Origin: Lachnospiraceae bacterium
Lineage (GTDB): Bacteria; Bacillota; Clostridia; Lachnospirales; Lachnospiraceae
Direction of reading: 5' to 3'
NCBI GenBank assembly: GCA_024405155.1
Contig: JAKSPC010000005.1
Location: forward strand, 31,805-95,804
DNA length: 64,000 nt
The notes beneath the pieces were generated by a model. It did not search any database. It was not told the origin of the DNA and was given only the letters and a program-made list of their open reading frames with translations. The first letter of the stretch is position 1. Each line of letters starts with the position of its first letter. This document shows positions 9,675-63,330 of this stretch, in pieces. The position numbers and the translations under genes were made by a program.

Positions 9675-10592
9675 TCATTTATTCTTTCTAGTCATGGATC
9701 TATCCGCGGCAATCTGCACGAAGATCCCGGATACGATGAGTGCCGTACCCACGATGGACCACACGGTGATGGGCTCTCCCAGCACGAAGTGGGTCACGAT
9801 CATGGAAATGACCGGCGTCAGATAAGAAAGATTTGCCAGGATGGCAGTGTTTCCGTTCTGCAGCGCCACTACCCACAGCACGCCGGGAAGGCCGTTGCAG
9901 ACGGCGCCGGCAAAGGCGGAACCGCCCCACTCTTTTAACGAAAGTGGCCGCAGCTGCCCCATGAAGACAGCGCAGAGAAACGCCGCCAGGCCGCTGGTGG
10001 CAAAGGCAACCAGCACGGAGATCTCCTTGTCATAGGACTCCCGCTTGTTTAGCACCGCGTAAAAGCCGTAGCTCACTGCCGCCGCCAGGCAGAACAGTGC
10101 CCCTCTGGCATTGGACAGGTCAAAGCTTTGAAAGCTGCCGCCCGTAGCCACGATCACCACGCCGGTAAAAGACATGAGCACCGCCAGCAGCTTTCCCACG
10201 GTCAGCTTTTCTTTCAGGATCAGGCAGGAAAACAGAATGATGCATGCCGGCCACAGATCATTGATGATGTAAGCGGTCTGGGCAGGCAGCATGGTGTTTC
10301 CCGAGTAATAGAAGAAGTTATAGAAAAATACGCCCAGAGACCCGATGGCTGCCATACGGAGAAACGTATTCAGGTTCAGATTTTTAAGTTCCCCCAGTTT
10401 TCCTTTCACGGCATAGTATGCCGCCAGAAACAGAGAGGCAAACAGACTGGTAAGCGCAAGGGCGAGCATAGGCTCGATCTGCGATACCAGAAGTTTGGTG
10501 CAGGTGGGCATGATGCCCCACAGAAGGATGGCGCCCAGGGCCTGCATCAGCGCCGTATTCTTTTTTGAAGACTCATTCAGGTTTTGTGTCAT
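9675..10592 (-). CDS. EamA/DMT-superfamily transporter
   Basis: A 305-residue protein with about ten hydrophobic helices arranged as two EamA repeats, such as LGAILLWGIMPTCTKLLVSQ near the N terminus and GAVCNGLPGVLWVVALQNG in the second half. Members of this superfamily export or import small metabolites. The substrate cannot be assigned. It is a membrane protein lying upstream of tex on the same strand, with a hairpin element starting at its stop codon. Confidence 0.85.
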   Translation of the reverse strand: MTQNLNESSKKNTALMQALGAILLWGIMPTCTKLLVSQIEPMLALALTSLFASLFLAAYYAVKGKLGELKNLNLNTFLRMAAIGSLGVFFYNFFYYSGNTMLPAQTAYIINDLWPACIILFSCLILKEKLTVGKLLAVLMSFTGVVIVATGGSFQSFDLSNARGALFCLAAAVSYGFYAVLNKRESYDKEISVLVAFATSGLAAFLCAVFMGQLRPLSLKEWGGSAFAGAVCNGLPGVLWVVALQNGNTAILANLSYLTPVISMIVTHFVLGEPITVWSIVGTALIVSGIFVQIAADRSMTRKNK

Positions 10593-10683
10593 AAGAGATG
10601 TTCCCGCTCAAAACTGCAATTCATGCAAATGCAACAGGCTGATTATACTACAACCGGAGATCACAGTCAGCAACCATCTCGGC

Positions 10684-11164: not shown

Positions 11165-11908
11165 ATGGATAAAAAAATCGAAAAACTGAACGAATGGATC
11201 CGCGAATCCGAGCGCATCGTCTTTTTCGGCGGTGCCGGCGTTTCCACGGAAAGCGGCGTGCCGGATTTCCGTTCCAAGGACGGACTCTACAATCAGCACG
11301 ACGTGCGCTTTGACGCCTACTCTCCGGAATATCTGTTAAGCCACTCATGCCTTACGGATCATCCGGAGGTGTTTTTTGAATTTTACCGCCAGAAAATGGA
11401 CGCCCAAAACGTGCAGCCAAATGCCGCCCACAAAAAGCTTGCCGAATTGGAAGCTGCGGGAAAGCTTTCCGCCGTAGTCACCCAGAACATCGACGGGCTC
11501 CATCAGAAGGCCGGAAGCAAAAAGGTCTTTGAGATCCACGGCTCCACGCTGAGGAATTACTGCACAAAATGCGGCAAAGCGTTCGGCAGCAATTATATTT
11601 TCGATTCCGAAGAAGCGGTCCCGCATTGCGAATGCGGCGGCATGGTGCGCTGTGACGTGACGCTTTATGAGGAAATGCTCCCCGACGACGCGGTGGACGG
11701 CGCGGTAAAAGCCATCCGTGCGGCCGACATGCTGATCATCGGCGGCACCTCTCTGCGGGTATACCCGGCCGCTTCCTACATCCGCTATTTCCGCGGAAAC
11801 CACCTGGTGGTCATCAACCGGGAGCCGCTGGACATTTCTCTGGATCCCGAAAAGGATCTGGAGATCAATGACTCCATCGGCAGAGTACTGTCACAGGTCG
11901 TGCTGTAA
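11165..11908 (+). CDS. cobB: Sir2-family NAD-dependent protein deacylase
   Basis: The 247-residue protein has all sirtuin motifs: GGAGVSTESGVPDFRS for NAD binding (22-37), TQNIDGLHQKAG (107-118), and catalytic His125 in EIHGS. The zinc site uses C133-x2-C136 and C155-x-C157. It removes acyl groups from lysine using NAD. Class U/M-type bacterial sirtuins of this size are common in clostridia. It is cytoplasmic. The S4-domain gene follows 54 bp downstream on the same strand. Confidence 0.92.
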   Translation: MDKKIEKLNEWIRESERIVFFGGAGVSTESGVPDFRSKDGLYNQHDVRFDAYSPEYLLSHSCLTDHPEVFFEFYRQKMDAQNVQPNAAHKKLAELEAAGKLSAVVTQNIDGLHQKAGSKKVFEIHGSTLRNYCTKCGKAFGSNYIFDSEEAVPHCECGGMVRCDVTLYEEMLPDDAVDGAVKAIRAADMLIIGGTSLRVYPAASYIRYFRGNHLVVINREPLDISLDPEKDLEINDSIGRVLSQVVL

Positions 11909-18343: not shown

Positions 18344-18484
18344 TTCTCTTTTTCCACGCTTTCAGCGGCGGACGGCTGCTATGTGGGAGCGCCGGTACGG
18401 TGTGCACAAAAGCCTTTTGTTGACTTTTTCCGCCGTCTTTGATAGACTCGCCCCATAAGCTCTTTGCACTGCATATTTCATCTA

Positions 18485-18580
18485 CAGTACAATCTGATCA
18501 GGCAGGCGTTCGCCAGTGCCGGGTTACAGGGGACAGCCCCCGTAACAGTGGATCTTTCCCACGGGACAGTAGTTACAACA
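18485..18580 (+). ncRNA. NiCo (czcD-type) riboswitch aptamer
   Basis: The segment carries the conserved pieces of the NiCo riboswitch in order: CTGATCAGGCA, a short hairpin GGCGTTCGCC, GTGCCGGG, a longer hairpin (TTACAGGGG...CCCCGTAA), CAG, a third hairpin, then GGGACAGT. This matches the four-way-junction aptamer known upstream of czcD-type genes, which senses Ni2+ and Co2+. The gene 60-70 bp downstream is a cation diffusion facilitator, as expected. A competing terminator follows directly. Confidence 0.8.
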
Positions 18581-18643: not shown

Positions 18644-19522
18644 ATGGAACACGAAACTTTCGAAAAGACCGCTGTCAAGGTCTCCAACGTAAGCATCATC
18701 GCCAACTCGGCGCTGACGCTTTTTAAGCTGTTTGCCGGCATTTTCGCCCATTCCGGCGCCATGATCTCCGACGCCATCCACTCCGCGTCCGACGTGCTTT
18801 CCAGTTTCATCGTGATCATCGGCGTGAAGTACGCGGCAAAAGATTCCGATGCGGACCACCCCTACGGCCACGAGCGTTTTGAATGCGTGGCCGCCATTGT
18901 GCTGGCTGTGATTCTTTGCATCACGGGACTGTTCATCGGTCATACCGCCATCGAAACGCTGACCGGAGGAAACGGCAGCGCCATGACCCAGCCGGGACTT
19001 CTGGCACTCATTGCCGCCATCGTTTCCATCGTGGTGAAAGAAGCCATGTACTGGTACACCCGGGCCTACGCGGTGAAATTCGATTCCACCGCTCTCATGG
19101 CCGAAGCCTGGCATCACCGGAGCGACGCCCTTTCTTCCATCGGCGCCCTCATCGGTATCGCCGGCGCCCGTCTGGGACATGCCTGGATGGAGCCTGTTGC
19201 CAGTCTTGTGATCTGCGTATTCATCGTAAAGGCCGCCTATGACATTTTCAGAAGCGCCATCACCAAGATGGTGGACCATTCCTGCAGCCCGGACATCAAG
19301 GAGCGTGTTACCGCCTGCGCCCTCTCCCAGAAAGGCGTAAAGGGCATAAAAAAGATCACCGGCAGGGAGTTTGGCAGCAGGATCTATATCGATCTTGATG
19401 TCACGGCAGACGGTGATCTGACATTAAAAGAGAGTTATCACATCCAGGAAACGGTGCACAAGGCCATTGAAAACGAGTTCCCGGAAGTAAAGCACATCGT
19501 GGTGCGGGTGATCCCCGTTTAG
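18644..19522 (+). CDS. Cation diffusion facilitator (CDF) metal efflux protein
   Basis: 292 residues: six predicted membrane helices, then a cytoplasmic ferredoxin-like domain (about 210-292). Metal-site motifs DAIHSASDV and HHRSDALSS carry the expected His/Asp pairs on helices 2 and 5. The family exports Zn2+, Co2+, Ni2+, Mn2+ or Fe2+ by proton exchange. The upstream NiCo riboswitch points to nickel and cobalt. Its stop overlaps that of the convergent mgtE gene by 4 nt. Confidence 0.9.
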   Translation: MEHETFEKTAVKVSNVSIIANSALTLFKLFAGIFAHSGAMISDAIHSASDVLSSFIVIIGVKYAAKDSDADHPYGHERFECVAAIVLAVILCITGLFIGHTAIETLTGGNGSAMTQPGLLALIAAIVSIVVKEAMYWYTRAYAVKFDSTALMAEAWHHRSDALSSIGALIGIAGARLGHAWMEPVASLVICVFIVKAAYDIFRSAITKMVDHSCSPDIKERVTACALSQKGVKGIKKITGREFGSRIYIDLDVTADGDLTLKESYHIQETVHKAIENEFPEVKHIVVRVIPV

Positions 19523-20895
19523 AACAGCACGCTCTTTGCGATGCCGAAATATACCAGCAGGGAAACGGCATCTACGATGGTGGTGATGAAGGGACTTGCC
19601 ATGACGGCGGGGTCGAACTTCAGCTTCTTTGCAACGAGCGGCAGCGTGCAGCCGATGACCTTGGCCACGATGACAGTGACCAGCATGGCCGAGCACACCA
19701 CGAGAGCAACAGAGAGCGTCACGTCCGCATTTCCCAGCACCAGACGGTCAAGGACCATCAGCTTTGCAAAACAGGCCAGCGCCAGCACCAGTCCGCACAG
19801 GATCGCCGTACGGCCTTCCTTCCAGACAACGGCCGGAAGGTCCTTCCAGTCCACCTCGCCAAGACTGATGGCACGGATGACAGTGACCGAAGACTGGGAA
19901 CCGGAGTTTCCGCCGGTATCCATCAGCATGGGGATAAAGGCGGTGAGCACCACCTGCACGGCCAGAGCATCTTCGAACTTCGTGATGATGAGCCCGGTAA
20001 ACGTGGCCGAAACCATCAGCAGAAGGAGCCAGGGGATGCGGTGCACGAAAAGCTCCGTGGGCTTTGACCTGAGGTATGTCTTGTCCGAAGGCGTCATGGC
20101 GGCCATGATCTGCATGTCCTCGGTCGCCTCGTCTTCCATAACGTCCATCACGTCATCGACGGTGATGATGCCCACCAGACGGTTTTCGTCATCCACCACA
20201 GGCATGGCCAGAAAGTTATATTTCTTGAAGTCTTCGGCGACCTTTTCCTGATCGTCGTGCACGTTTACGCTGATGACATTGGGATTCATGATGGAGCGCA
20301 TCTGCAGATCGTCGTTCAAGGCAAGGATCATGTCCTTTACCGAAACATGACCTGCCAGCTTTCCGCTCTGATCCACCACATAACAGGTATAGATGGTCTC
20401 TTTATCCACGCCGGTCCGGCAGATCACGTCCAGCGCCTGCCGGACGGTCATTTCCGGCTTTAATGCCACGAACTCCGTGGTCATGAGAGAACCGGCGCTG
20501 TTTTCCGGGTACTTTAAAACTTCATTGATCTCTCTGCGCATCTGGGGATCCGCCTGCGCCAGGATGCGCTTTACCACGTCGGCAGGCATTTCCTCCACGA
20601 TATCCACGGCATCATCCACGAAAAGATCGTTGACGATCTCACGGAGCTCGGTATCGGAAAGGCCTTTGATGAGCTTTTCCTGCACGTCCGGCTCCATTTC
20701 CACGAAGCATTCGGAAGCTTTGTCCTTGGAAAGCAGACGGAACAGAAGCGGGAGCGATTCCGGCTCCAGCCCGTTAAAGACGGCGGCAATATCCGCCCCG
20801 TTGATGGTGGCGAGGACGTCTTTCAGGACGGAGAACTTTTTCTCGGCGAAAAGCTTCGAAATGGTGTCCTCCATGGTGACAGTGCGATCAGACAT
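19519..20895 (-). CDS. mgtE: MgtE-family magnesium transporter (downstream paralog)
   Basis: 458 residues with the MgtE layout: N-terminal superhelical domain (LLFRLLSKDKASECFVEM), two CBS domains (about 135-255; TCYVVDQSGKLAGHVSVKD, VDDENRLVGIITVDDVMDVM), then five membrane helices with the pore signature LMDTGGNSGSQSSV. It transports Mg2+, gated by Mg2+ binding to the cytosolic domains. It follows a second, closely similar mgtE 61 bp upstream and is probably read from the same promoter. Confidence 0.93.
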   Translation of the reverse strand: MSDRTVTMEDTISKLFAEKKFSVLKDVLATINGADIAAVFNGLEPESLPLLFRLLSKDKASECFVEMEPDVQEKLIKGLSDTELREIVNDLFVDDAVDIVEEMPADVVKRILAQADPQMRREINEVLKYPENSAGSLMTTEFVALKPEMTVRQALDVICRTGVDKETIYTCYVVDQSGKLAGHVSVKDMILALNDDLQMRSIMNPNVISVNVHDDQEKVAEDFKKYNFLAMPVVDDENRLVGIITVDDVMDVMEDEATEDMQIMAAMTPSDKTYLRSKPTELFVHRIPWLLLLMVSATFTGLIITKFEDALAVQVVLTAFIPMLMDTGGNSGSQSSVTVIRAISLGEVDWKDLPAVVWKEGRTAILCGLVLALACFAKLMVLDRLVLGNADVTLSVALVVCSAMLVTVIVAKVIGCTLPLVAKKLKFDPAVMASPFITTIVDAVSLLVYFGIAKSVLF

Positions 20896-20956: not shown

Positions 20957-22330
20957 TCAGAACAGGATCGCGGAAGCGATGCCGAAATATACCAGCAGGG
21001 AAAGGGCGTCCACGATGGTGGTGATGAAGGGGCTGGCCATGACGGCAGGATCGAAGTTCAGCTTTTTTGCCACCATGGGCAGGATGCAGCCGATGCTTTT
21101 CGCCAGGATAACGGTAAACAGCATGGCAAGCGATACCACCAGCGCCACTTTGGCGTTCACGCCGTCGTTGCCCAGCAGAAGGCCGTCCAGAAGCATCAGC
21201 TTAATGAAGCAGGCACCCGCCAGAGCAAGGCCGCAGAGGAAAGCCGTCCTTCCCTCTTTCCAGATGATGGCGGGAAGGTCGCCCCATTCCACTTCGCCAA
21301 GGCTGATGGCACGGATGACGGTGACCGAAGACTGCGAGCCGGAGTTTCCGCCGGTACCCATCAGCATGGGGATAAAGGCGGTGAGCACCACCTGTGCCGC
21401 CAGTGCCGCCTCGAATTTATCGATGATAAGGCTGGTGAAGGTGGAGGAGATCATAAGGATCAGGAGCCACGGAATGCGGGACTTGAAAAGCTCCACGGGC
21501 TTCGAACGGAGATATACCTTATCCGACGGCATCATGCCGGCCATGATCTGCATATCCTCGGTGGTCTCATCTTCCATGACGTCCATGACGTCATCGACGG
21601 TGATGATGCCCACCATACGGTTCTCGCTGTCCACCACGGGCATGGCCAGGAAGTTGTACTTCTTGAACATTTCCGCTACCTGCTCCTGGTCTTCTTTCAC
21701 ACCCACGCTGATGACGTTTTCCGTCATGAGGGTGCGGATCTGAATGTCGTCACTGGGCGCAAGGATCAGATCCTTTACGGAAACGAACCCTATGAGAACG
21801 CCTTTTTCCGTGACGTAACAGGTATAGATGGTCTCTTTGTCCACGCCCGTTTTCCGGATGACGTTTAAGGCATCCCGGATGGTCATTTCGGGCTTTAATG
21901 CCACGAACTCCGTGGTCATGATGGAACCGGCGCTGTTTTCCGGATACTTTAAGACTTCGTTGATCTCTTTGCGCATCTGGGGATCCGCCTGGGCCAGGAT
22001 ACGTTTTACCACCGTGGCGGGCATTTCCTCCACGATATCGGCAGCATCGTCAACGAAAAGATCGTTCACGATCTCACGAAGCTCGGTATCGGACAGACCC
22101 TTGATGAGCTTTTCCTGAGCTTCCGGTTCCATTTCCACGAAACAGTCCGCGGCCGTATCTTTCGGCAGCACGCGAAACAGAAGCGGGAGCACTACGGGAT
22201 CCAGCTCGTTAAAGACGGCGGCAACATCCGCCCCATTCATTGTTCTAAGGACTTCTTTCAGTACAGGATACTTTTTCTCAGCCAGGAGCTTTTCGATGGT
22301 ATCCTCTACTCTTACTACGCGATCTGACAT
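20957..22330 (-). CDS. mgtE: MgtE-family magnesium transporter (promoter-proximal paralog)
   Basis: 457 residues, the same architecture as its neighbour, with CBS motifs (VDSENRMVGIITVDDVMDVM) and LMGTGGNSGSQSSV in the pore region (Gly replaces the Asp of the usual LMDTGG). The two proteins are similar along their whole length, so this is a tandem duplication. A 183-nt untranslated leader with a short reading frame separates it from its promoter. AAAAGGAGG precedes the ATG, directly after a TAGAAA/TTTCTA hairpin. Confidence 0.93.
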   Translation of the reverse strand: MSDRVVRVEDTIEKLLAEKKYPVLKEVLRTMNGADVAAVFNELDPVVLPLLFRVLPKDTAADCFVEMEPEAQEKLIKGLSDTELREIVNDLFVDDAADIVEEMPATVVKRILAQADPQMRKEINEVLKYPENSAGSIMTTEFVALKPEMTIRDALNVIRKTGVDKETIYTCYVTEKGVLIGFVSVKDLILAPSDDIQIRTLMTENVISVGVKEDQEQVAEMFKKYNFLAMPVVDSENRMVGIITVDDVMDVMEDETTEDMQIMAGMMPSDKVYLRSKPVELFKSRIPWLLILMISSTFTSLIIDKFEAALAAQVVLTAFIPMLMGTGGNSGSQSSVTVIRAISLGEVEWGDLPAIIWKEGRTAFLCGLALAGACFIKLMLLDGLLLGNDGVNAKVALVVSLAMLFTVILAKSIGCILPMVAKKLNFDPAVMASPFITTIVDALSLLVYFGIASAILF

Positions 22331-22646: not shown

Positions 22647-22919
22647 ATGAGCATTCAGACTACCATGAAAGCCCTGTCCGATCCCACCCGCAGAGAGATC
22701 TTAAAGATGCTGAAAAAAGGCAGACTCTCCGCCGGAGAGATCGAGGGACGTTTCGACATCAGTTTTCCCGCCATCTCCCGGCATCTGTCGGTCCTAAAAG
22801 ACGCAGACCTGGTACGGGACGAGCGGGATGGCAAAAATGTGTATTATTCGCTGAACACTTCCGTGCTGGAAGAGGTCCTTGCCTGGCTGGAAGCTTTGAA
22901 AGGAGACGGAAATGATTAA
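22647..22919 (+). CDS. ArsR/SdpR-family transcriptional repressor
   Basis: 90-residue winged helix protein: TMKALSDPTRREILKMLKKG at the N terminus, recognition helix FPAISRHLSVLKDADLV, wing RDGKNVYYSLN. No metal-binding cysteines are seen. It matches SdpR, the autorepressor paired with SdpI, and the next gene is an SdpI homolog overlapping by 8 nt. GGAGG precedes the ATG. Confidence 0.88.
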   Translation: MSIQTTMKALSDPTRREILKMLKKGRLSAGEIEGRFDISFPAISRHLSVLKDADLVRDERDGKNVYYSLNTSVLEEVLAWLEALKGDGND

Positions 22920-23550
22920 GAAGAACAAATTTCTTGTGATCGCAACATTTGTCGTGACGCTCATGCCCCTCTTCGTAGGGCTGATTTTATGGAACAGACT
23001 GCCGGACATGATCGCCACCCATTTCAACATGAACAATGAGCCTGACGGATGGACCTCCAAAGCCGGCACCGTTTTCGGCATCCCCGTATTCATGTGTGCC
23101 ATGCAGGCCTTCTGCCTCTGGGCCACCTCCGCCGATCCCCGGAAAAAGAACATTTCCGAAAAGGCATTTAAGATCGTCATCTGGATCATCCCGGCCTGCA
23201 GCCTGATCGTATGTGTGGCAAGCTACGGCATGACCCTGGGGCTGTCCATCGACCTCGGCACCATCGTATGCCTTTTCCTGGGCATCCTGTTCATCGTTCT
23301 GGGAAACATCATGCCAAAGAATCAGGACAATTTCACCTTTGGCATCAAAACTCCCTGGGCACTGAGCGATCCCGACAACTGGAACTTCTCGAACCGTCTG
23401 GCAGGCTACTGCTTTGTGATCGGCGGCATCCTCATCATCCTGGTGACGCTTCTGAGAAAGCCGGTGCTTCTGTTCCCCATCGTGATCATCATCGCTCTCA
23501 TACCCATCGTCGCTTCGTACGTGTACTACCTGAAGCATAAGGAAATGTAA
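22912..23550 (+). CDS. SdpI/DUF1648-family membrane protein
   Basis: 212 residues, about six membrane helices. The DUF1648 motif (LPDMIATHFNMNNEPDGWTS) is followed by the SdpI-like segment NFTFGIKTPWALSDPDNW. In Bacillus, SdpI gives immunity to the SdpC toxin and sequesters SdpR at the membrane. A similar signalling pair is likely here. No toxin gene is seen nearby. Part of this gene and its 3' flank are duplicated at 25.18-25.27 kb. Confidence 0.85.
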   Translation: MIKKNKFLVIATFVVTLMPLFVGLILWNRLPDMIATHFNMNNEPDGWTSKAGTVFGIPVFMCAMQAFCLWATSADPRKKNISEKAFKIVIWIIPACSLIVCVASYGMTLGLSIDLGTIVCLFLGILFIVLGNIMPKNQDNFTFGIKTPWALSDPDNWNFSNRLAGYCFVIGGILIILVTLLRKPVLLFPIVIIIALIPIVASYVYYLKHKEM

Positions 23551-23617: not shown

Positions 23618-24241
23618 TTATAACTGTTTACCGATACTGTGCACCGTGCAGACAGCAACGCCCTGCATCCTCACCTCGTCCACATATATGGGCGCGTATT
23701 TCTTTTGATTTTTGTTGCACGAATACAGATAATACTGTTCTTTCTCTTCATCAAAGCATAATTGTTTCAGATTGACGAGCCCGTCATCGTAAAGTGCAAC
23801 GATAATATCTCCTATCTCGGCGGTGTCCTGCTTGCGTATGATAACGTAATCTCCCGGAAACACACCGATATCCGTCATTGACTCACCCTTAGCGATAAGA
23901 GCAAAGAAATCACCCTTGCCGACCAGTCTTTCCGGCATACGTATATATTCGATGATATTCTCTTCCTCATAATCGCCCGGGCCGCAGGTGACGCTGCCGA
24001 GCACGGGGAGCGCATGGTGATAGCCCTCCTTACCCATACGAAGCGTTCCGATATTCCGCCGACCGCTATATTCAAGCTCGCCGCTTTCTTTCATCGCGCA
24101 GAGATACCGATGCACCGTAGAAATTGCTATTCCAGTTCCTTCGGAGATCTCCCGTACAGATGGAATCGTTTTATTCAGATTGAAATATTCGTTTATATAG
24201 TCAAGAATAACGTGCTTGTTTTCCTCATTCTGTCTTCGCAT
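23618..24241 (-). CDS. LexA-like S24 peptidase repressor
   Basis: 207 residues: N-terminal winged helix (IPSVREISEGTGIAISTVHR), then an S24 protease fold. Cleavage site Cys86-Gly87 (VTCGPGD), nucleophile Ser121 in KGESM and general base Lys159 in VNLKQL are all present. Cys-Gly is the cleavage pair of UmuD/phage-type repressors rather than the Ala-Gly of LexA. Self-cleavage on DNA damage would relieve repression. It is the second gene after KilA-N (9 bp gap). Confidence 0.88.
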   Translation of the reverse strand: MRRQNEENKHVILDYINEYFNLNKTIPSVREISEGTGIAISTVHRYLCAMKESGELEYSGRRNIGTLRMGKEGYHHALPVLGSVTCGPGDYEEENIIEYIRMPERLVGKGDFFALIAKGESMTDIGVFPGDYVIIRKQDTAEIGDIIVALYDDGLVNLKQLCFDEEKEQYYLYSCNKNQKKYAPIYVDEVRMQGVAVCTVHSIGKQL

Positions 24242-24250
24242 AAAGCCGCC

Positions 24251-25051
24251 TCATCTCAGATACTTTTTGTTGTCAACTTCCTGCAAAACCGTAATCTGAT
24301 GGATCGCGATCTGATTGAGTTTCTGAAGGCGCCTCGACTGCGGTACGTTATCGTTTATTAGGACGGCGTTGATATTTTCAAGATTGGAGAGGCAGATCAA
24401 TTCGTTCATCGTGGCATAATCGCGGATGTTTCCCTTCAAATCCGGGTTTTCCTCGCGCCATTGCTTTGCGGTTTTGCCGAAAAGAGCAACGTTCAGAACA
24501 TCGGCTTCATCGGCATATACGAAAGAGATCTGGGGTGGCGTAAGCTCAACGGGGATCAAATTCTGCTTGATTGCGTCTGTATGGATATGATAATTGATCT
24601 TTGCAAGCTCACGTTTTGCCGACCAGCCGAGCAGCTTCTGTTCCTTGTTTTTCAGACGCTGGAATTCTTTAACGATATAGATCTTGAAGCGCGGGCTTAT
24701 CCACATCGCAAACTCAAAAGCGATATCCTTGTGTGCATATGTTCCGCCATAACGCCCTGCTTTAGCGGTGAGTGAAATGGCTCCCGTCCGTTCCACAAAC
24801 TCCTTGACGCTGATTCTGAAGCTGTTCAGCCCAGAACGGTTCGCTATTTCAGAAAACGCATCAAAGTTGAAATCGGGGTTATATACGCTTTCCCACGTGC
24901 CGATATATTCCAAAGTATTACGGTTGCGCAGCCAATCGGTAACAAAAAAATCCCCGTCCTTGGCTTTGAGCATATCCGTAATACAGATATAATCCTCGCC
25001 GTTCACTTTGATTATATTGATTTCCGTGTCTTTTACTGTCAGCTTCTGCAT
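24251..25051 (-). CDS. KilA-N domain protein
   Basis: 266 residues. The N-terminal KilA-N DNA-binding domain is seen in YICITDMLKAKDGDFFVTDW, GTYAHKDIAFEFAMWISPRF and KIYIVKEFQRLKNKE. A C-terminal helical region follows. Such proteins occur in phages and mobile elements as antirepressor-like factors. GGAGGG precedes the ATG and a 30-bp palindrome lies 23 bp upstream. It forms a two-gene unit with the LexA-like repressor. Confidence 0.8.
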   Translation of the reverse strand: MQKLTVKDTEINIIKVNGEDYICITDMLKAKDGDFFVTDWLRNRNTLEYIGTWESVYNPDFNFDAFSEIANRSGLNSFRISVKEFVERTGAISLTAKAGRYGGTYAHKDIAFEFAMWISPRFKIYIVKEFQRLKNKEQKLLGWSAKRELAKINYHIHTDAIKQNLIPVELTPPQISFVYADEADVLNVALFGKTAKQWREENPDLKGNIRDYATMNELICLSNLENINAVLINDNVPQSRRLQKLNQIAIHQITVLQEVDNKKYLR

Positions 25052-25176: not shown

Positions 25177-25266
25177 GGATCATCCCGGCCTGCAGTCTGA
25201 TCGTGTGTCTGGCCGGCCGCTGCAGGCAAATATTCATTGACAGGACAGCCGGAAAATAGTAAAGTC
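25177..25266 (+). pseudogene. Remnant of an sdpI copy fused to its 3' flank
   Basis: 25177-25212 matches sdpI 23183-23218 (GGATCATCCCGGCCTGCAG...) with a few changes, then jumps directly to the 54-bp segment that follows the sdpI stop (25213-25266 = 23553-23606). The middle of the gene is missing. It shows duplication and deletion around the LexA-like/KilA-N insert. Confidence 0.8.
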
Positions 25267-25270
25267 AGTG

Positions 25271-25373
25271 ATGCAAACAATGTGAAGTCGTGAGGGGAAC
25301 ACGGTGAAAGGCCGTGACAGCTCACTCTGCGGTATGGATCTTCCGAGTCCGAATGCCTCCGACGGATCTGCAT
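25271..25373 (+). ncRNA. Cobalamin riboswitch 1 of a tandem pair
   Basis: Contains the B12-box core GAGGGGAACACGGTGAAAGG, CCGTGACAGCTCACTCTGCGG and, 3', GAGTCCGAATGCC. Closing helices ATGCA/TGCAT and GTCG/CGAC bound it. It precedes a 32-codon frame with its own ribosome binding site. Confidence 0.85.
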
Positions 25374-25401
25374 TTTCTTTTGGTGAAGGAAGGGAATACT
25401 C

Positions 25402-25500
25402 ATGAAAAAATCCGGTTCATTCTTTGCGGCGATCCTCGCCCGCATCTTTGCAAACGTTTCCGAAAAGCGGAAAACATCCCTGAAAACAACAACTTCATAG
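25402..25500 (+). CDS. 32-residue frame between the two cobalamin riboswitches
   Basis: Starts MKKSGSFFAAILARIFANVS and stops at 25500. GAAGGAAGGGAATACTC upstream mirrors the site before the large gene downstream (GAAGGAAGGAGAAGAA). It could be the decayed 5' end of a duplicated signal-peptide gene, or a leader peptide controlled by riboswitch 1. No domain is seen. Confidence 0.4.
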   Translation: MKKSGSFFAAILARIFANVSEKRKTSLKTTTS

Positions 25501-25537
25501 GTCTGTAGCCTGCAGCATAGCTGCAGTCATATAGAGC

Positions 25538-25633
25538 AGAAACAAAAGAAGGGGAACGCGGTGAAAAGCCGCGACAGCTCACTCTGCGGTAAAAAGCGAT
25601 GGCTTTGAAGTCCGAATGCCTTCTTTCGTTTCT
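25538..25633 (+). ncRNA. Cobalamin riboswitch 2 of a tandem pair
   Basis: Nearly the same core as riboswitch 1 (GGGGAACGCGGTGAAAAGCC, GCGACAGCTCACTCTGCGG, GAAGTCCGAATGCC), closed by AGAAAC...GAAGG / CCTTC...GTTTCT. It ends 36 bp before the ATG of the toroid/DUF4430 gene. With no obvious terminator, control is probably at translation initiation. Confidence 0.88.
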
Positions 25634-25668
25634 TTTATTTGTATCTTTTGGTGAAGGAAGGAGAAGAA

Positions 25669-27507
25669 ATGAAAAGAGTAAAAAGATACGCAGCAAAAGT
25701 GCTCGCGGTCGCAATGCTTCTTACGGCGATCCTGCCGGGGAATGCGTTTGCCGCGGAAAGCACGGATCACGTCGACTGGCAGACGGCACTTGGCGAAGCC
25801 GCCGATCAGTGGCTCATTGACCAACCGGAGGCGGAGTTCGGCACGGATGCCGACTGGATCATCATTTCGCTCATAGGCAGCGGATACCTGAAAAAAGATG
25901 ATCCCTACGCAGTGAAATATGCCGAAAACCTGCTCGCCTATCTGGCGGAATATACCGAGGGTTCAGAGGCTACGCCTTCGGATGCGGGAAAGATCATCGA
26001 CCGTAAGGGTAAAACGGCAGGCTCCGTGAACGCGAAAGCGATCCTTGCCCTTAGCGCTCTGGGCCTTGAGACGGATGCCGCAGGCGAAGACGTGGCAGCG
26101 CCGTTTTCGGACGAAAATTTCGAGGAAAACAGGGACTGGTCACTTTCCGGATTCGCCTCCACGGACGGGTATCTGCTGATGGCATTAAACGGCCTGTCCG
26201 GTACGGGATCCTACACAAAAGAAAAGGCATGGATCAGACAGAACTTTACGACGCCGTCCAACTATGACCGCGAAACCGGTGCATTCGGATATACCTTGGA
26301 CGACTATTTCAGCGCAGACCCGGATACCACCGCCATGGTGATCCAGGCACTGGCAAAAAGCGGCGTCGGGGAAACGAACGACGTCATCGGCAAGGCGCTC
26401 GCATGGCTGAAAGATCAGCAGACAGCGACGGGAGCCATTGACAACTGGGGCGACAACGTGGATTCCACAGCCCAGGCAGTACTCGCTCTCTGCGCACTGG
26501 ATATCGACCCAGCCTCCTGGAAACAGGACGGCATGTCACTGATCGATTATATCGTTTCGACATACGATCCGGAAACAAGGACTTTTCAGGGCGCCTACGG
26601 GGACTCCTATCAGAACCAGGCCGTTCAGGCGCTTGGTGCCTACAGGAAATACGTGAATGCTCATGCCGCGCAGTCGTCCTCCGACGAGGAACCTTACAAA
26701 CCGTCAGACGTGCGGTCATCTTACAGCGGAAGTTCTTACAAAGTGTCTGCCGCGCAGAAATTGAGAGACGCCATGAATATCTCCGTGACGTCACCGGAAC
26801 AGGGCGACTGGGTCCGGATGGAAGACGGCTCCTGGATGCTCTTTGAAAACGGAATGCCCGTTGTTTCGCGCTGGGCGGCCGCAGTCAATCCGTATACGAC
26901 GCCGGAGTCCGTTTCGTGGTTCTATTTCGGCGACGACGGAAAGATGCTTGTCGGCTGGCAGAAGATCGCAGAAAAGTGGTATTACCTGAATCCCATCCAT
27001 AACGGCTGGTATGGCGCGTGCTACATGAATGCAAAGACACCCGACGGCTATCGGGTGGGTGCCGACGGTTCCTGGATCGAAGAAGCAGCCGAAGAGGATC
27101 CCGCCGCATCTTCGGCCGGCTCAAAAAACGGGGCCGATGAAAAAGAAGAAAAGAAAACCGGAACAGTGACTGTTTCCGTTTCTGCCGGTGCCACCACAAC
27201 AGAAGGAAACACGATCTCTTTCTCCGCTTCAAAAACATTCCGGACGGATGACACGGAGGAAACCTCTGCTTACGACCTCCTGTGTGCGCTCTGTGAGGCA
27301 AAGGACTGGGACATGGAAGGGGACGGTTCCTACGTGGCCGGGATCAATGGTCTTTTTGAATTTGACTGTGGATCATCAAGCGGATGGATGTACAAAGTAA
27401 ACGGAAAGATCCCGGCCGTTTCCGCCGGTGACTGTGAAGTAAACGCCGGCGACAAAATCAGCTGGTTCTACGTGACAGACTATGAGAAACTGTTCGGTGA
27501 CATGTAA
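25669..27507 (+). CDS. Secreted toroid + wall-binding repeat + DUF4430 protein, predicted B12-binding
   Basis: 612 residues from ATG 25669 (GGAAGGAG upstream). Signal peptide 1-28 ending NAFA|AE. Residues about 30-330 are alpha-alpha toroid repeats of the prenyltransferase/squalene-cyclase type (DPDTTAMVIQALAKSGVG, DSTAQAVLALCALDIDP). About 365-470 hold choline/cell-wall-binding-like repeats (DGSWMLFENGMPV, GWQKIAEKWYYLN). The last 110 are a DUF4430 domain (NGLFEFDCGSSSGWMYKVNG). Toroid plus DUF4430-like beta domain is the architecture of transcobalamin and intrinsic factor. With the B12 riboswitch upstream, cobalamin capture at the cell surface is the best inference. Confidence 0.8.
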   Translation: MKRVKRYAAKVLAVAMLLTAILPGNAFAAESTDHVDWQTALGEAADQWLIDQPEAEFGTDADWIIISLIGSGYLKKDDPYAVKYAENLLAYLAEYTEGSEATPSDAGKIIDRKGKTAGSVNAKAILALSALGLETDAAGEDVAAPFSDENFEENRDWSLSGFASTDGYLLMALNGLSGTGSYTKEKAWIRQNFTTPSNYDRETGAFGYTLDDYFSADPDTTAMVIQALAKSGVGETNDVIGKALAWLKDQQTATGAIDNWGDNVDSTAQAVLALCALDIDPASWKQDGMSLIDYIVSTYDPETRTFQGAYGDSYQNQAVQALGAYRKYVNAHAAQSSSDEEPYKPSDVRSSYSGSSYKVSAAQKLRDAMNISVTSPEQGDWVRMEDGSWMLFENGMPVVSRWAAAVNPYTTPESVSWFYFGDDGKMLVGWQKIAEKWYYLNPIHNGWYGACYMNAKTPDGYRVGADGSWIEEAAEEDPAASSAGSKNGADEKEEKKTGTVTVSVSAGATTTEGNTISFSASKTFRTDDTEETSAYDLLCALCEAKDWDMEGDGSYVAGINGLFEFDCGSSSGWMYKVNGKIPAVSAGDCEVNAGDKISWFYVTDYEKLFGDM

Positions 27508-28375
27508 CATACGAAAAGCGGCTGCCGCACTGGCGGCTGCCGCTTTCTGCGTGCTGTTTTCCTTACCCGTATTTGCGGCAGGTACCGGGGACAGTGCCTG
27601 GGACGTGATCGCAAAGGCGCAGGGTGAAAGCGGGATCCGCCCGCAGGAGGCAGACGCGTGGTATTCTTCTCTGGAAAAGACGCTGAAGGAGAAAAACGGG
27701 GTCCTTTCCGAAAACCGGTATACAGAGTATTCCAAAATCGCACTGGCGGCTCTGGCCATTGGAAAGGATCCGGAAAATGTCGGCGGATACGATCTGATCT
27801 CCCGTCTGTATGACTGTGACAAAGTGGTGCGGCAAGGGATCAATGGTCCCGTATGGGCGCTGATCGCGCTGGACGCCGCCGGAAAAAAGCAGGAAGTCAC
27901 GGCCGAATACCTCCGGTATCTTCTGGAAAGAGAACTGCCTGGCGGCGGCTGGAACATGACGGGGAACGGCGCGCCGGATCCTGACGTTACGGCCATGGTC
28001 CTGCAGGCATTTTCCAATCACCGAAGTGCTCCCGGCATAAGCGCTTCAATAAACCGCGGGATCCGCGTACTGTCCTCCCTGCAGAAAGAAAACGGCTGTT
28101 TTTCGGGTTATGGCTCGGAAAACGCCGAAAGCACTGCGCAGGTCATCATTGCCCTGTGTGAACTGGGATGGTCGTCTGAAAGCCCGATGTTTGTCAAAAA
28201 CGGGATCAGTGTCAAAACAGCGTTGGCGTCATATCGTCTGGCAGGCGGTGAATACCTTCATAAAAAGGGGGACAGGACTGCCGATGCCATGGCCACGCAG
28301 CAAGGCCGCCTCGCAGAAGCTGCGCTGTGGCGATACGAAAACCACAGAGGTTCGATCTATGACATGGGGAAATAA
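27482..28375 (+). CDS. Secreted alpha-alpha toroid protein
   Basis: About 297 residues, signal peptide ending LPVFA|AG. The mature part is one toroid domain (YTEYSKIALAALAIGKDPE, GGGWNMTGNGAPDPDVTAMV, ESTAQVIIALCELGW). It lacks the beta domain of its upstream neighbour. Its 5' end overlaps that gene by 26 nt; the start could be ATG 27482 or GTG 27497, and no strong ribosome binding site is visible, so translation is probably coupled. Its 3' end overlaps the DUF4430 lipoprotein gene by 17 nt. The pair looks like the two halves of a transcobalamin-type protein on separate chains. Confidence 0.75.
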   Translation: MRNCSVTCNIRKAAAALAAAAFCVLFSLPVFAAGTGDSAWDVIAKAQGESGIRPQEADAWYSSLEKTLKEKNGVLSENRYTEYSKIALAALAIGKDPENVGGYDLISRLYDCDKVVRQGINGPVWALIALDAAGKKQEVTAEYLRYLLERELPGGGWNMTGNGAPDPDVTAMVLQAFSNHRSAPGISASINRGIRVLSSLQKENGCFSGYGSENAESTAQVIIALCELGWSSESPMFVKNGISVKTALASYRLAGGEYLHKKGDRTADAMATQQGRLAEAALWRYENHRGSIYDMGK

Positions 28376-28880
28376 AAAAAACTTCCTTCGGCGCGTGCTT
28401 TTCACCGTGACTGCCGTCATTGTTCTTCTGACAGCATGCCATGCAAAAAAAGCGCATGCGCCTGCGGAAACAGGAAACACCTGCACGGTCACCATACGAT
28501 GCGATACGATCCTTGAAAACATGGAGGCTCTGGATTCCGAGAAAAGGGATCTTATCCCGGCAGACGGAGTGATCCTTCCGGAAACGGAAGTCACCGTATC
28601 TGACGGCGATTCCGCCTTTGATGTGCTGAAGCGGGCCTGTCTTGCGGGCAGGATCCATCTGGAATTCTCGGAAGCCGCGTTCTATGATTCCGTCTACATA
28701 GAAGGGATCGCCAACATCTATGAATTTGACTGCGGGCCCTTGAGCGGATGGATGTTCTGCATAAACGGCGAATATAAAAACTACGGCTGTTCTGCCATTT
28801 TGGTCTCTCCAGGAGACAGAGTGGATTTCAACTATACGTGCGATCTGGGGTGCGATCTGGGAAACGGCGTTTCGCAGTGA
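28359..28880 (+). CDS. DUF4430-domain lipoprotein
   Basis: 173 residues from ATG 28359. The N-terminal helix ends in the lipobox LTAC (Cys about 25), so it is lipid-anchored outside the membrane. The rest is a DUF4430 domain: SDGDSAFDVLKRACLAG, the motif IANIYEFDCGPLSGWMFCIN, and SPGDRVDFNYTCDLG at the end. It matches the C-terminal domain of the first gene of the operon. In transcobalamins the beta domain closes over cobalamin held by the toroid; here the toroid protein is encoded just upstream. Role in B12 uptake is inferred. Confidence 0.8.
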   Translation: MTWGNKKNFLRRVLFTVTAVIVLLTACHAKKAHAPAETGNTCTVTIRCDTILENMEALDSEKRDLIPADGVILPETEVTVSDGDSAFDVLKRACLAGRIHLEFSEAAFYDSVYIEGIANIYEFDCGPLSGWMFCINGEYKNYGCSAILVSPGDRVDFNYTCDLGCDLGNGVSQ

Positions 28881-28884
28881 TCCC

Positions 28885-29436
28885 TTACTTTACGCCGCAG
28901 GATGCATCCGCAGCAGTGTATTTTTTCAAGGTGATCACCAGGATGGGGATCAGAACGAGCTGCAGGATGATGCCGGGGATCGCCGTGAGAAAGGCACCGG
29001 AAAGAAAAGCCTCCCAGCCGAATTCCGTGCTGCCAAGACCATAGAAAACAGTCCTTGCAATGCCCCATACCACTCTTCCGGCGATCATGGCCGCAATAAG
29101 CGCAATGTAGACGGAGGACTTTTTCTGCGGGAGGACTTTATAGAGCATTCCCGCGGTAAAGCCGTAGGTGGCCAACTCCAGGCTCATGGCGACTCCCTTG
29201 GGGATGAGCGGCGGCACGCCAAAAAGAACGGAACGAAGGAGCGGCGCAATGAGCCCCACGGCAAGCCCGTACCACGGGCCGCAGAAGAAACCGCACAACA
29301 GCACCGGGATGTGCATGGGACAAAGCGCGTTTCCGATCTGCGGGATCTGTCCCGTCAGAAACGGAAGCACCAGGGCCAGCGCCAGAAACATGGCGGCCAG
29401 CACCAGATGGTAAGATTTTTTACTGTTCGATGACAT
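28885..29436 (-). CDS. ECF transporter S component (candidate cobalamin type)
   Basis: 183 residues, six hydrophobic helices in the ECF S-component pattern: FLTGQIPQIGNALCPMHIPV, LCGFFCGPWYGLAVGLIAPL, GVAMSLELATYGFTAG. S components bind a vitamin and deliver it through the shared ECF ATPase/T module, which is not in this window. It converges on the riboswitch-controlled secreted proteins with a 4-bp gap, so cobalamin is the favoured substrate (context only). It lies downstream of trxA on the same strand, with a CAGCCGG/CCGGCTG hairpin between. Confidence 0.75.
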   Translation of the reverse strand: MSSNSKKSYHLVLAAMFLALALVLPFLTGQIPQIGNALCPMHIPVLLCGFFCGPWYGLAVGLIAPLLRSVLFGVPPLIPKGVAMSLELATYGFTAGMLYKVLPQKKSSVYIALIAAMIAGRVVWGIARTVFYGLGSTEFGWEAFLSGAFLTAIPGIILQLVLIPILVITLKKYTAADASCGVK

Positions 29437-62924: not shown

Positions 62925-63161
62925 TTATTTCTTCACGATCCAGATTCCGCGTGTCCCGCCTTCTCTTTCAAGAATGCCTTTTTCTTTTAATGCTGCAAAT
63001 GCACGCTCTACACTTCGTTGACTGATTCCAAGCTGTTTTGAAATAGCGTTTGCACTTATTTTATTATTTTCTAAAACACTAGATATGACAAAATTCTCCA
63101 GTTCGCTATTTCCGACAGGATTACCGACAGGATTACCGACAGGATTGCCGCCAGCCGCCAT
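62925..63161 (-). pseudogene. C-terminal winged-helix fragment with GNPV repeats
   Basis: 78 codons. Three 12-bp direct repeats (63112-63147, CCGACAGGATTA) encode GNPV-GNPV-GNPV, followed by a winged helix (ISANAISKQLGISQRSVERA, KEKGILEREGGTRGIWIV). This is the usual C-terminal tail of AlbA_2/Schlafen-type ATP-binding regulators. The main part is missing; an intron fragment abuts its 5' side. Confidence 0.6.
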
Positions 63162-63172
63162 TACCTAGTCTT

Positions 63173-63330
63173 TTCCCGGACATCCGGCTTCCTTCAGATT
63201 CCACCTCACGATGGACACCCTTGCCTTCGGCTGTATCCTTCCCGCTGTCGGGCGGATTCGGGACTTGCACCCGTTAGAAACGTGCCTCGCCAATGCCCGT
63301 GCTCTTGAACTACTGTCCTTAAGAACACCG
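63173..63330 (-). mobile_element. Group II intron domain I fragment
   Basis: On the minus strand the segment contains GGGTGCAAGTCCCGAATCCG, GGATACAGCCGAAGGCAAGG, GTGTCCATCGTGAGGTGGAA and TCTGAAGGAAGCCGG, a well-known string of bacterial group II intron domain I. No reverse transcriptase follows and the element breaks off after about 160 nt. A 65-codon open frame here is intron sequence. Confidence 0.75.

Follow-up and report, generated by a model that had tools for sequence, protein, structure and literature searches.

What do the genes downstream of two cobalamin riboswitch-like elements in a clostridial genome do, and which transporter would they serve? The locus that raises this question occupies positions 25,271 to 29,436 of the window, i.e., the whole 64,000-nucleotide stretch of contig JAKSPC010000005.1 that was analyzed, from a Lachnospiraceae bacterium (GCA_024405155.1; assembly of 2.03 Mb, 93% complete). 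An earlier note, made from the DNA letters, had read it as a riboswitch-controlled, transcobalamin-like vitamin B12 capture system with split alpha (toroid) and beta domains, which could hand B12 to an importer of the energy-coupling factor (ECF) type. The features concerned, in window coordinates, are:

25295..25357, + strand: cobalamin riboswitch copy 1, a partial match (RF00174, 28.2 bits, sub-threshold against a cut-off of 31.5; E 2.2e-4 for the stretch searched)
25489..25641, + strand: cobalamin riboswitch copy 2 (RF00174, 37.8 bits against a cut-off of 31.5), immediately 5' of P1
25669..27507, + strand: P1, a secreted protein with a toroid (about residues 30-340), short choline-binding-type repeats and a DUF4430 / transcobalamin beta domain (about residues 500-612)
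27482..28375, + strand: P2, a secreted toroid-only protein (Pfam SQHop_cyclase_C, 28.5 against 26.1; signal peptide read from the sequence)
28362..28880, + strand: P3, a DUF4430-only lipoprotein (Pfam DUF4430, 51.2 bits, alignment A3; lipobox LLTAC read from the sequence)
28885..29436, - strand: P4, a convergent ECF S component (Pfam ECF_trnsprt, 77.2 against 30.7)

Our answer, to which we give a probability of about 0.83, is that the window locus is a B12-repressed corrinoid capture operon that feeds a CbrT-type ECF transporter encoded elsewhere in the genome, on the contig referred to here as C7. The three capture genes overlap, P1 and P2 by 26 nt and P2 and P3 by 14 nt, and both Pfam and a reading of the sequences bear out the domain make-up that had been described for them. 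The DUF4430 domain of P1 scores 64.1 bits against a cut-off of 23.8, and its signal peptide was read from the sequence. Its wall-binding repeats fall slightly under their Pfam cut-offs (26.2 against 27 and 19.3 against 20.5), and in a sequence search of the PDB they match pneumococcal choline-binding protein structures at 1.9e-9. All three products are predicted to be secreted or anchored at the surface. The arrangement of riboswitches and capture genes is not a matter of chance, because comparable sets of genes are met again in other members of the family and outside it.

The whole genome contains three matches to RF00174 (E<=1) and three DUF4430 genes (E<=0.001), all of them at two loci: two of each lie in the window, and the third of each on C7. 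Copy 2 passes the Rfam gathering cut-off, whereas copy 1 and the C7 copy (29.4 bits) stay below it. Copy 1 can nevertheless be aligned closely with both of the others, and the three have a long core and a ribosome-binding stretch in common. Control of the operon by a cobalamin riboswitch is supported by the position of copy 2 and, more broadly, by a survey of 150 genomes of the family, 72 of which encode DUF4430 (109 places) and 124 of which have a cobalamin riboswitch at E<=0.01. When the 72 genomes were searched again with laxer filters, 60 yielded riboswitches, 98 in total at the same E-value; six of these, including both weak ones of the present genome, are below the Rfam cut-off. A same-strand riboswitch lies within 12 kb upstream of 60 of the 109 DUF4430 places, in 46 of the 72 genomes and using 50 of the 98 riboswitches, while a count of about 0.5 such places would be expected if genomes of 2.0 Mb are assumed.

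The same survey points to an ECF transporter as the partner. Regions were classified by the genes found within 7 kb on the strand of the DUF4430 gene, and 91 of 92 could be assigned (L038-L128 plus L007; L123 has no DUF4430 open reading frame, ORF). The original plan had 93, one of which, the second on G108 C1, was left out for its overlap with L057. A full ECF set, i.e., DUF4430 with EcfT, EcfA and an S component, is found in 31 of the 91, and 23 of these also have a toroid; one further region has a partial set, with a toroid. Another 41 regions combine DUF4430 with an S component only, or 40 without the overlapping L065, whose S component is that of L064 (L109 and L110 overlap as well). A CbrT-like S component thus stands beside DUF4430 in 72 of the 91 regions, in line with the co-occurrence with ECF cobalamin components that the earlier note had named as a check. 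Toroid and DUF4430 may be fused, in either order, or encoded by separate genes. In two of the fused proteins (L084 and L096), the C-terminus carries TPDTGD or PPPTGD, followed by a hydrophobic stretch and a basic tail; we take these ends to be sortase-type anchor motifs, and read them as a second way in which a capture protein could be held in the wall.

The assignment of these S components to CbrT rests on two profiles, one built from the full-ECF regions (A5, using 22 of 33 S components) and one from the regions with an S component only (A6, using 22 of 42). For both, the top PDB hit is 6FNP, the structure of ECF-CbrT, which transports cobalamin and cobinamide (PMC5997447). For A5 the E-value is 3.8e-20, with a riboflavin uptake protein as runner-up at 1.2e-5; for A6 it is 4.2e-21, with no further hit at E<=1. 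All but two of the 76 S components in the regions fit A5 or A6; 44 of these 74 do so by construction, since they were used to build the profiles, and the two exceptions are P4 and an orthologue of it in L072. An earlier profile, ECFS, had included P4 as a seed, and each S component was afterwards rechecked individually.

Beyond the family, 90 of 299 genomes sampled across the phylum encode DUF4430 at E<=1e-6, two of them from the family of the window. One locus per family was taken for 20 of the 21 other families represented among the loci listed (f83 was left out, the sample being limited to 20 regions), and for G175 and some families a place or genome other than the top-ranked one was used. 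The S component fits both profiles at 18 of these 20 loci (weakly in L272), EcfT is present at 14 and a toroid at 16, and a same-strand upstream cobalamin riboswitch above the cut-off is found at 13; the sample leans to the full-ECF type, because it was drawn from high-scoring DUF4430 hits. A conserved-peptide scan of named genomes returned at least 594 relatives. Judging by their titles, the best 80 of these bear clostridial or other Bacillota names, among them Flavonifractor plautii, Oscillibacter valericigenes and Urinicoccus massiliensis, except for one given just as 'uncultured bacterium'.

In the present genome, the transporter that fits this pattern is on C7. There, the riboswitch is followed in order by a DUF4430 lipoprotein, EcfT and a fused EcfA-EcfA'-S protein, whose S domain (residues 15-186) matches CbrT 6FNP at 4.6e-7, with no other PDB hit below 0.5. 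This complete transporter is the likely importer for the window proteins, judging by sequence, and the suggestion of an ECF partner thereby gains a concrete candidate. Synthesis of B12 requires more than one tetrapyrrole methylase, and a single one was found in this 93%-complete assembly, in which other pathway genes were not searched; as far as the assembly goes, then, the host seems unable to make the vitamin. As for its use, the genome encodes subunit S of methylaspartate mutase, with a score over the cut-off, and a protein related to the corrinoid proteins of methyltransferases, with a score under the cut-off for those.

Could the cargo be something other than B12? The proteins might capture another corrinoid, such as cobinamide or a different cobamide, or they might supply a cobalt ECF transporter with free cobalt, a version that we regard as unlikely although it survives better than its competitors. 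Pfam labels the EcfT of C7 as CbiQ, a 'cobalt transport protein'; cobinamide is also moved by CbrT (PMC5997447); a related structure from R. gnavus, 3u7z, carries the label 'putative metal binding protein'; and the window also contains a riboswitch of the NiCo family. That element, however, precedes a cation-efflux gene and not the B12 operon, and the family in front of the operon is the cobalamin one. The S components match CbrT, and the single tetrapyrrole methylase makes a conversion of cobalt to B12 improbable in this genome. The R. gnavus structure itself may belong to the DUF4430 class found with an S component only.

Could the importer instead be P4, as had first been supposed? The gene is present as described, it adjoins P3, and it falls in the ECF S superfamily. 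Its role as a B12 importer, on the other hand, did not hold up. P4 matches neither A5 nor A6 nor, by sequence, CbrT 6FNP, and its best solved relatives, all weak matches, are folate and riboflavin S components. It is read from the opposite strand, the riboswitch searches gave no cobalamin element ahead of it, and the CbrT-like S component of this genome sits on C7. Ten close orthologues (>=50% identity) occur in 100 genomes, and not one shares a contig with a DUF4430 match, the contigs being those of draft assemblies; the orthologue in L072 is near another DUF4430 operon, but upstream of it. Because the CbrT-like profiles are unmatched and the orthologues lie off DUF4430-bearing contigs, P4 is likely a neighbor of other specificity, and on this sequence evidence it is probably a bystander outside the capture system. 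That the window locus serves P4 is accordingly a version in which we place very little credence.

The fold evidence bears on the capture proteins themselves. The AlphaFold model of P1 (612 residues) has a mean predicted local distance difference test (pLDDT) score of 74.1, its wall-repeat linker being poorly predicted. That of a fused relative, in which toroid and beta domain are joined by a short linker (421 residues), reaches a pLDDT of 91.6 and a predicted template modeling (pTM) score of 0.78. When these models were compared with 350,542 PDB chains using Foldseek, the first 14 matches of P1 were all transcobalamin, intrinsic factor or haptocorrin, and its matches include 5no0 and 5np4; the first 15 of the fused relative were likewise all B12 carriers. 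In a profile search, the transcobalamin beta domain was the only PDB hit of DUF4430 at E<=10. Pfam and the models thus support the proposal that a transcobalamin-like pair of folds occurs here both fused, in P1, and split, in P2 and P3. Hardly any room is left for the notion that the toroid proteins are secreted enzymes, of the terpene cyclase or polysaccharide-lyase type, which merely share the riboswitch regulon: the DXDD motif, the catalytic motif of squalene-hopene and type II terpene cyclases, is found in 0 of 44 toroid ORFs (P2 included; two of the 44 are fragments of fewer than 80 residues), Foldseek places B12 carriers above cyclases when both domains are present, and the toroids are repeatedly fused to, or beside, DUF4430 and CbrT-type ECF genes.

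Several results weigh against a B12 capture operon, or limit its reach. In the models, the two domains are not docked as in holo-transcobalamin (root-mean-square deviation about 11 to 24). Because this arrangement differs from that in the B12-bound crystals, the models do not show a closed cleft; of the cleft that had been predicted, it is the match to both transcobalamin domains that stands. The mismatch may reflect an open apo state. VIA-align, whose comparison is dominated by the toroid, puts terpene cyclases and sugar-active toroids ahead of the B12 carriers. DUF4430 matches the transcobalamin beta domain weakly in sequence (E 1.8), and a profile of toroid plus beta domain finds no transcobalamin in the PDB at E<=1. 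In the family, 49 of the 109 DUF4430 places have no linked riboswitch, and 18 of the 91 regions, 11 of them with a toroid, have no ECF gene by the rule used (the strand rule placed L057 here, though it has an ECF set that begins with one of its DUF4430 genes). Nor does the sandwich occur everywhere, because all 41 regions with an S component only are without a toroid; in that class (among L075-L128), 39 of the 41 DUF4430 ORFs are 130-262 residues long, and 19 of the 41 have a lipobox-like motif by a crude test. At the genome level, no adenosyltransferase of the PduO type was found at E<=0.001, in a search restricted to that type. Finally, searches of a second genome from this genus (G117) found no DUF4430 and no RF00174, and the system is therefore patchy even within the genus.

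With these reservations, the operon might work as follows. When B12 is scarce, the cobalamin riboswitches would permit expression. P1, held in the wall by its choline-binding-type repeats, would clasp a corrinoid between its toroid and its DUF4430 domain, while P2, the toroid, and P3, the membrane-tethered beta domain, would close over a corrinoid as two chains at the membrane. The CbrT-type ECF transporter would then take over the corrinoid, with the C7 lipoprotein and S component as receivers. Both closures are proposed by analogy, because the alpha and beta domains of human transcobalamin, expressed separately, assemble only upon addition of cobalamin (PMC5599065). The isolated human beta domain has moreover been crystallized with cobalamin and with cobinamide (PMC5599065). 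The sign of the regulation, B12 binding, the two-chain closure and the hand-over are all steps that we infer. Since the regions with an S component only have no toroid, a beta domain by itself may be enough as a membrane-side partner.

A wider generalization can be offered more tentatively, and we would put it at somewhat less than an even chance. On this reading, the B12-type ECF transporters of Bacillota would routinely use a dedicated apparatus for extracellular capture, with cobalamin gluing a toroid protein to a membrane-tethered beta lipoprotein and the closed pair docking on, and loading, the CbrT S component. The transcobalamins of animals would have arisen from this bacterial receptor as a form that is fused and secreted. 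If true, ECF transporters would no longer obey the rule that they need no binding proteins outside the cell.

The leader region of the operon contains two further features:

25237..25265, + strand: promoter-like TTGACA-17-TAAAGT, just 5' of the first riboswitch (10/12 matches)
25402..25500, + strand: ORF of 32 amino acids between both riboswitch copies, read from the sequence; its ribosome-binding stretch resembles that of P1

The ORF may be a leader peptide or the remnant of a duplicated gene start. The promoter-like site is weak on its own, because the region has 3 sites of this kind against 2.8 expected, no more than chance would give. Paired riboswitches are also seen at a locus of another family (L279), where two same-strand cobalamin riboswitches (10411-10598 and 11449-11636, about 850 bp apart) lie 5' of a toroid-DUF4430 operon; the pair is therefore not unique to the window.

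Elsewhere in the window, the NiCo riboswitch (18484-18571, 48.1 bits) is located directly 5' of the cation-efflux (CDF) gene at 18644-19522. This is ordinary control of cobalt/nickel efflux, and about 7 kb separate it from the B12 operon. Two adjacent, similar genes for MgtE-type divalent cation transporters follow on the - strand (19519-20895 and 20957-22330; the domain scan was made on the first), apparently a tandem duplication. On the + strand, an ArsR-family regulator (22647-22919) overlaps an SdpI/DUF1648 membrane protein (22912-23550), a pair that we take to be SdpR/SdpI-like. Just upstream of the B12 operon, a LexA/S24-type protein and a KilA-N domain protein (23618-24241 and 24251-25051, - strand) are phage-like. 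A short match to a group II intron family at 63157-63215 (- strand) is barely above its cut-off (32.4 against 32).

How does this system compare with those already known? The general idea, that bacterial toroid-transcobalamin proteins scavenge B12, has been in print since 2007. Burroughs et al. described such proteins in both domain orders, surface-anchored and likely to be B12 scavengers, in operons with CbiO/CbiQ and in hosts usually lacking key enzymes of B12 synthesis (PMC1796856). Their SLBB transcobalamin clade comprises Gram-positive secreted or wall-anchored beta domains, often fused to a toroid and often with a second SLBB gene in the operon (PMC1796856). The window proteins share with it the transcobalamin-type beta-grasp, the association with a toroid and the predicted secretion or surface anchoring; CbiO/CbiQ-like operons are found on C7 and in 31 of the 91 regions, though not at the window locus, and the host lacks B12 synthesis as judged by the tetrapyrrole methylase count. 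The 2007 account differs in that its main text, in the portion available, does not contain the word 'riboswitch' and gives CbiO/CbiQ as context genes, with no S component (PMC1796856). New relative to it are the riboswitch linkage with its statistics, the CbrT-type S partner and the match of the models to B12 carriers. New, too, are the distinction of two locus types, the toroid and the beta lipoprotein as stand-alone proteins, the placing of the transporter at another locus with a riboswitch, and the finding that P4 is probably no part of the system. An in-silico prediction thereby becomes a specific and testable machine, consisting of cobalamin riboswitch, toroid and beta surface proteins and CbrT-type ECF importer. 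In the literature searched, whose coverage was incomplete, we found no experimental test of such capture proteins.

Substrate binding in ECF transporters is ascribed to the S component in the membrane. The S components beside DUF4430 resemble that of ECF-CbrT from Lactobacillus delbrueckii (6FNP), their best match among PDB chains. Unlike in that system, a DUF4430 surface protein is here encoded with the S component, a contrast that leaves aside the neighboring gene cbrS of L. delbrueckii. Besides naming a likely transporter partner, this suggests that ECF transporters for B12 can have extracellular capture proteins.

To our knowledge, extracellular capture of B12 by Gram-positive bacteria is poorly known compared with that in Bacteroides. 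The pair of BtuH and what we take to be BtuG differs from the present proteins in belonging to Bacteroidetes. The surface B12-binding lipoproteins of Bacteroides are alike in capturing B12 in gut bacteria (PMC6143338, PMC8941943), a likeness of role.

A further parallel is with animals. Transcobalamin, intrinsic factor and haptocorrin are soluble single-chain carriers that are endocytosed. They too consist of a toroid and a beta domain, in the same order as in P1; the bacterial proteins, in contrast, are predicted to be attached to the wall or the membrane, have the two domains either on separate chains or fused in one order or the other, and are encoded next to an ATP-driven importer. The comparison bears on the published proposal of a Gram-positive origin of animal transcobalamin and intrinsic factor, according to which animals acquired a transcobalamin-type protein from Gram-positive bacteria (Burroughs et al. 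2007, PMC1796856).

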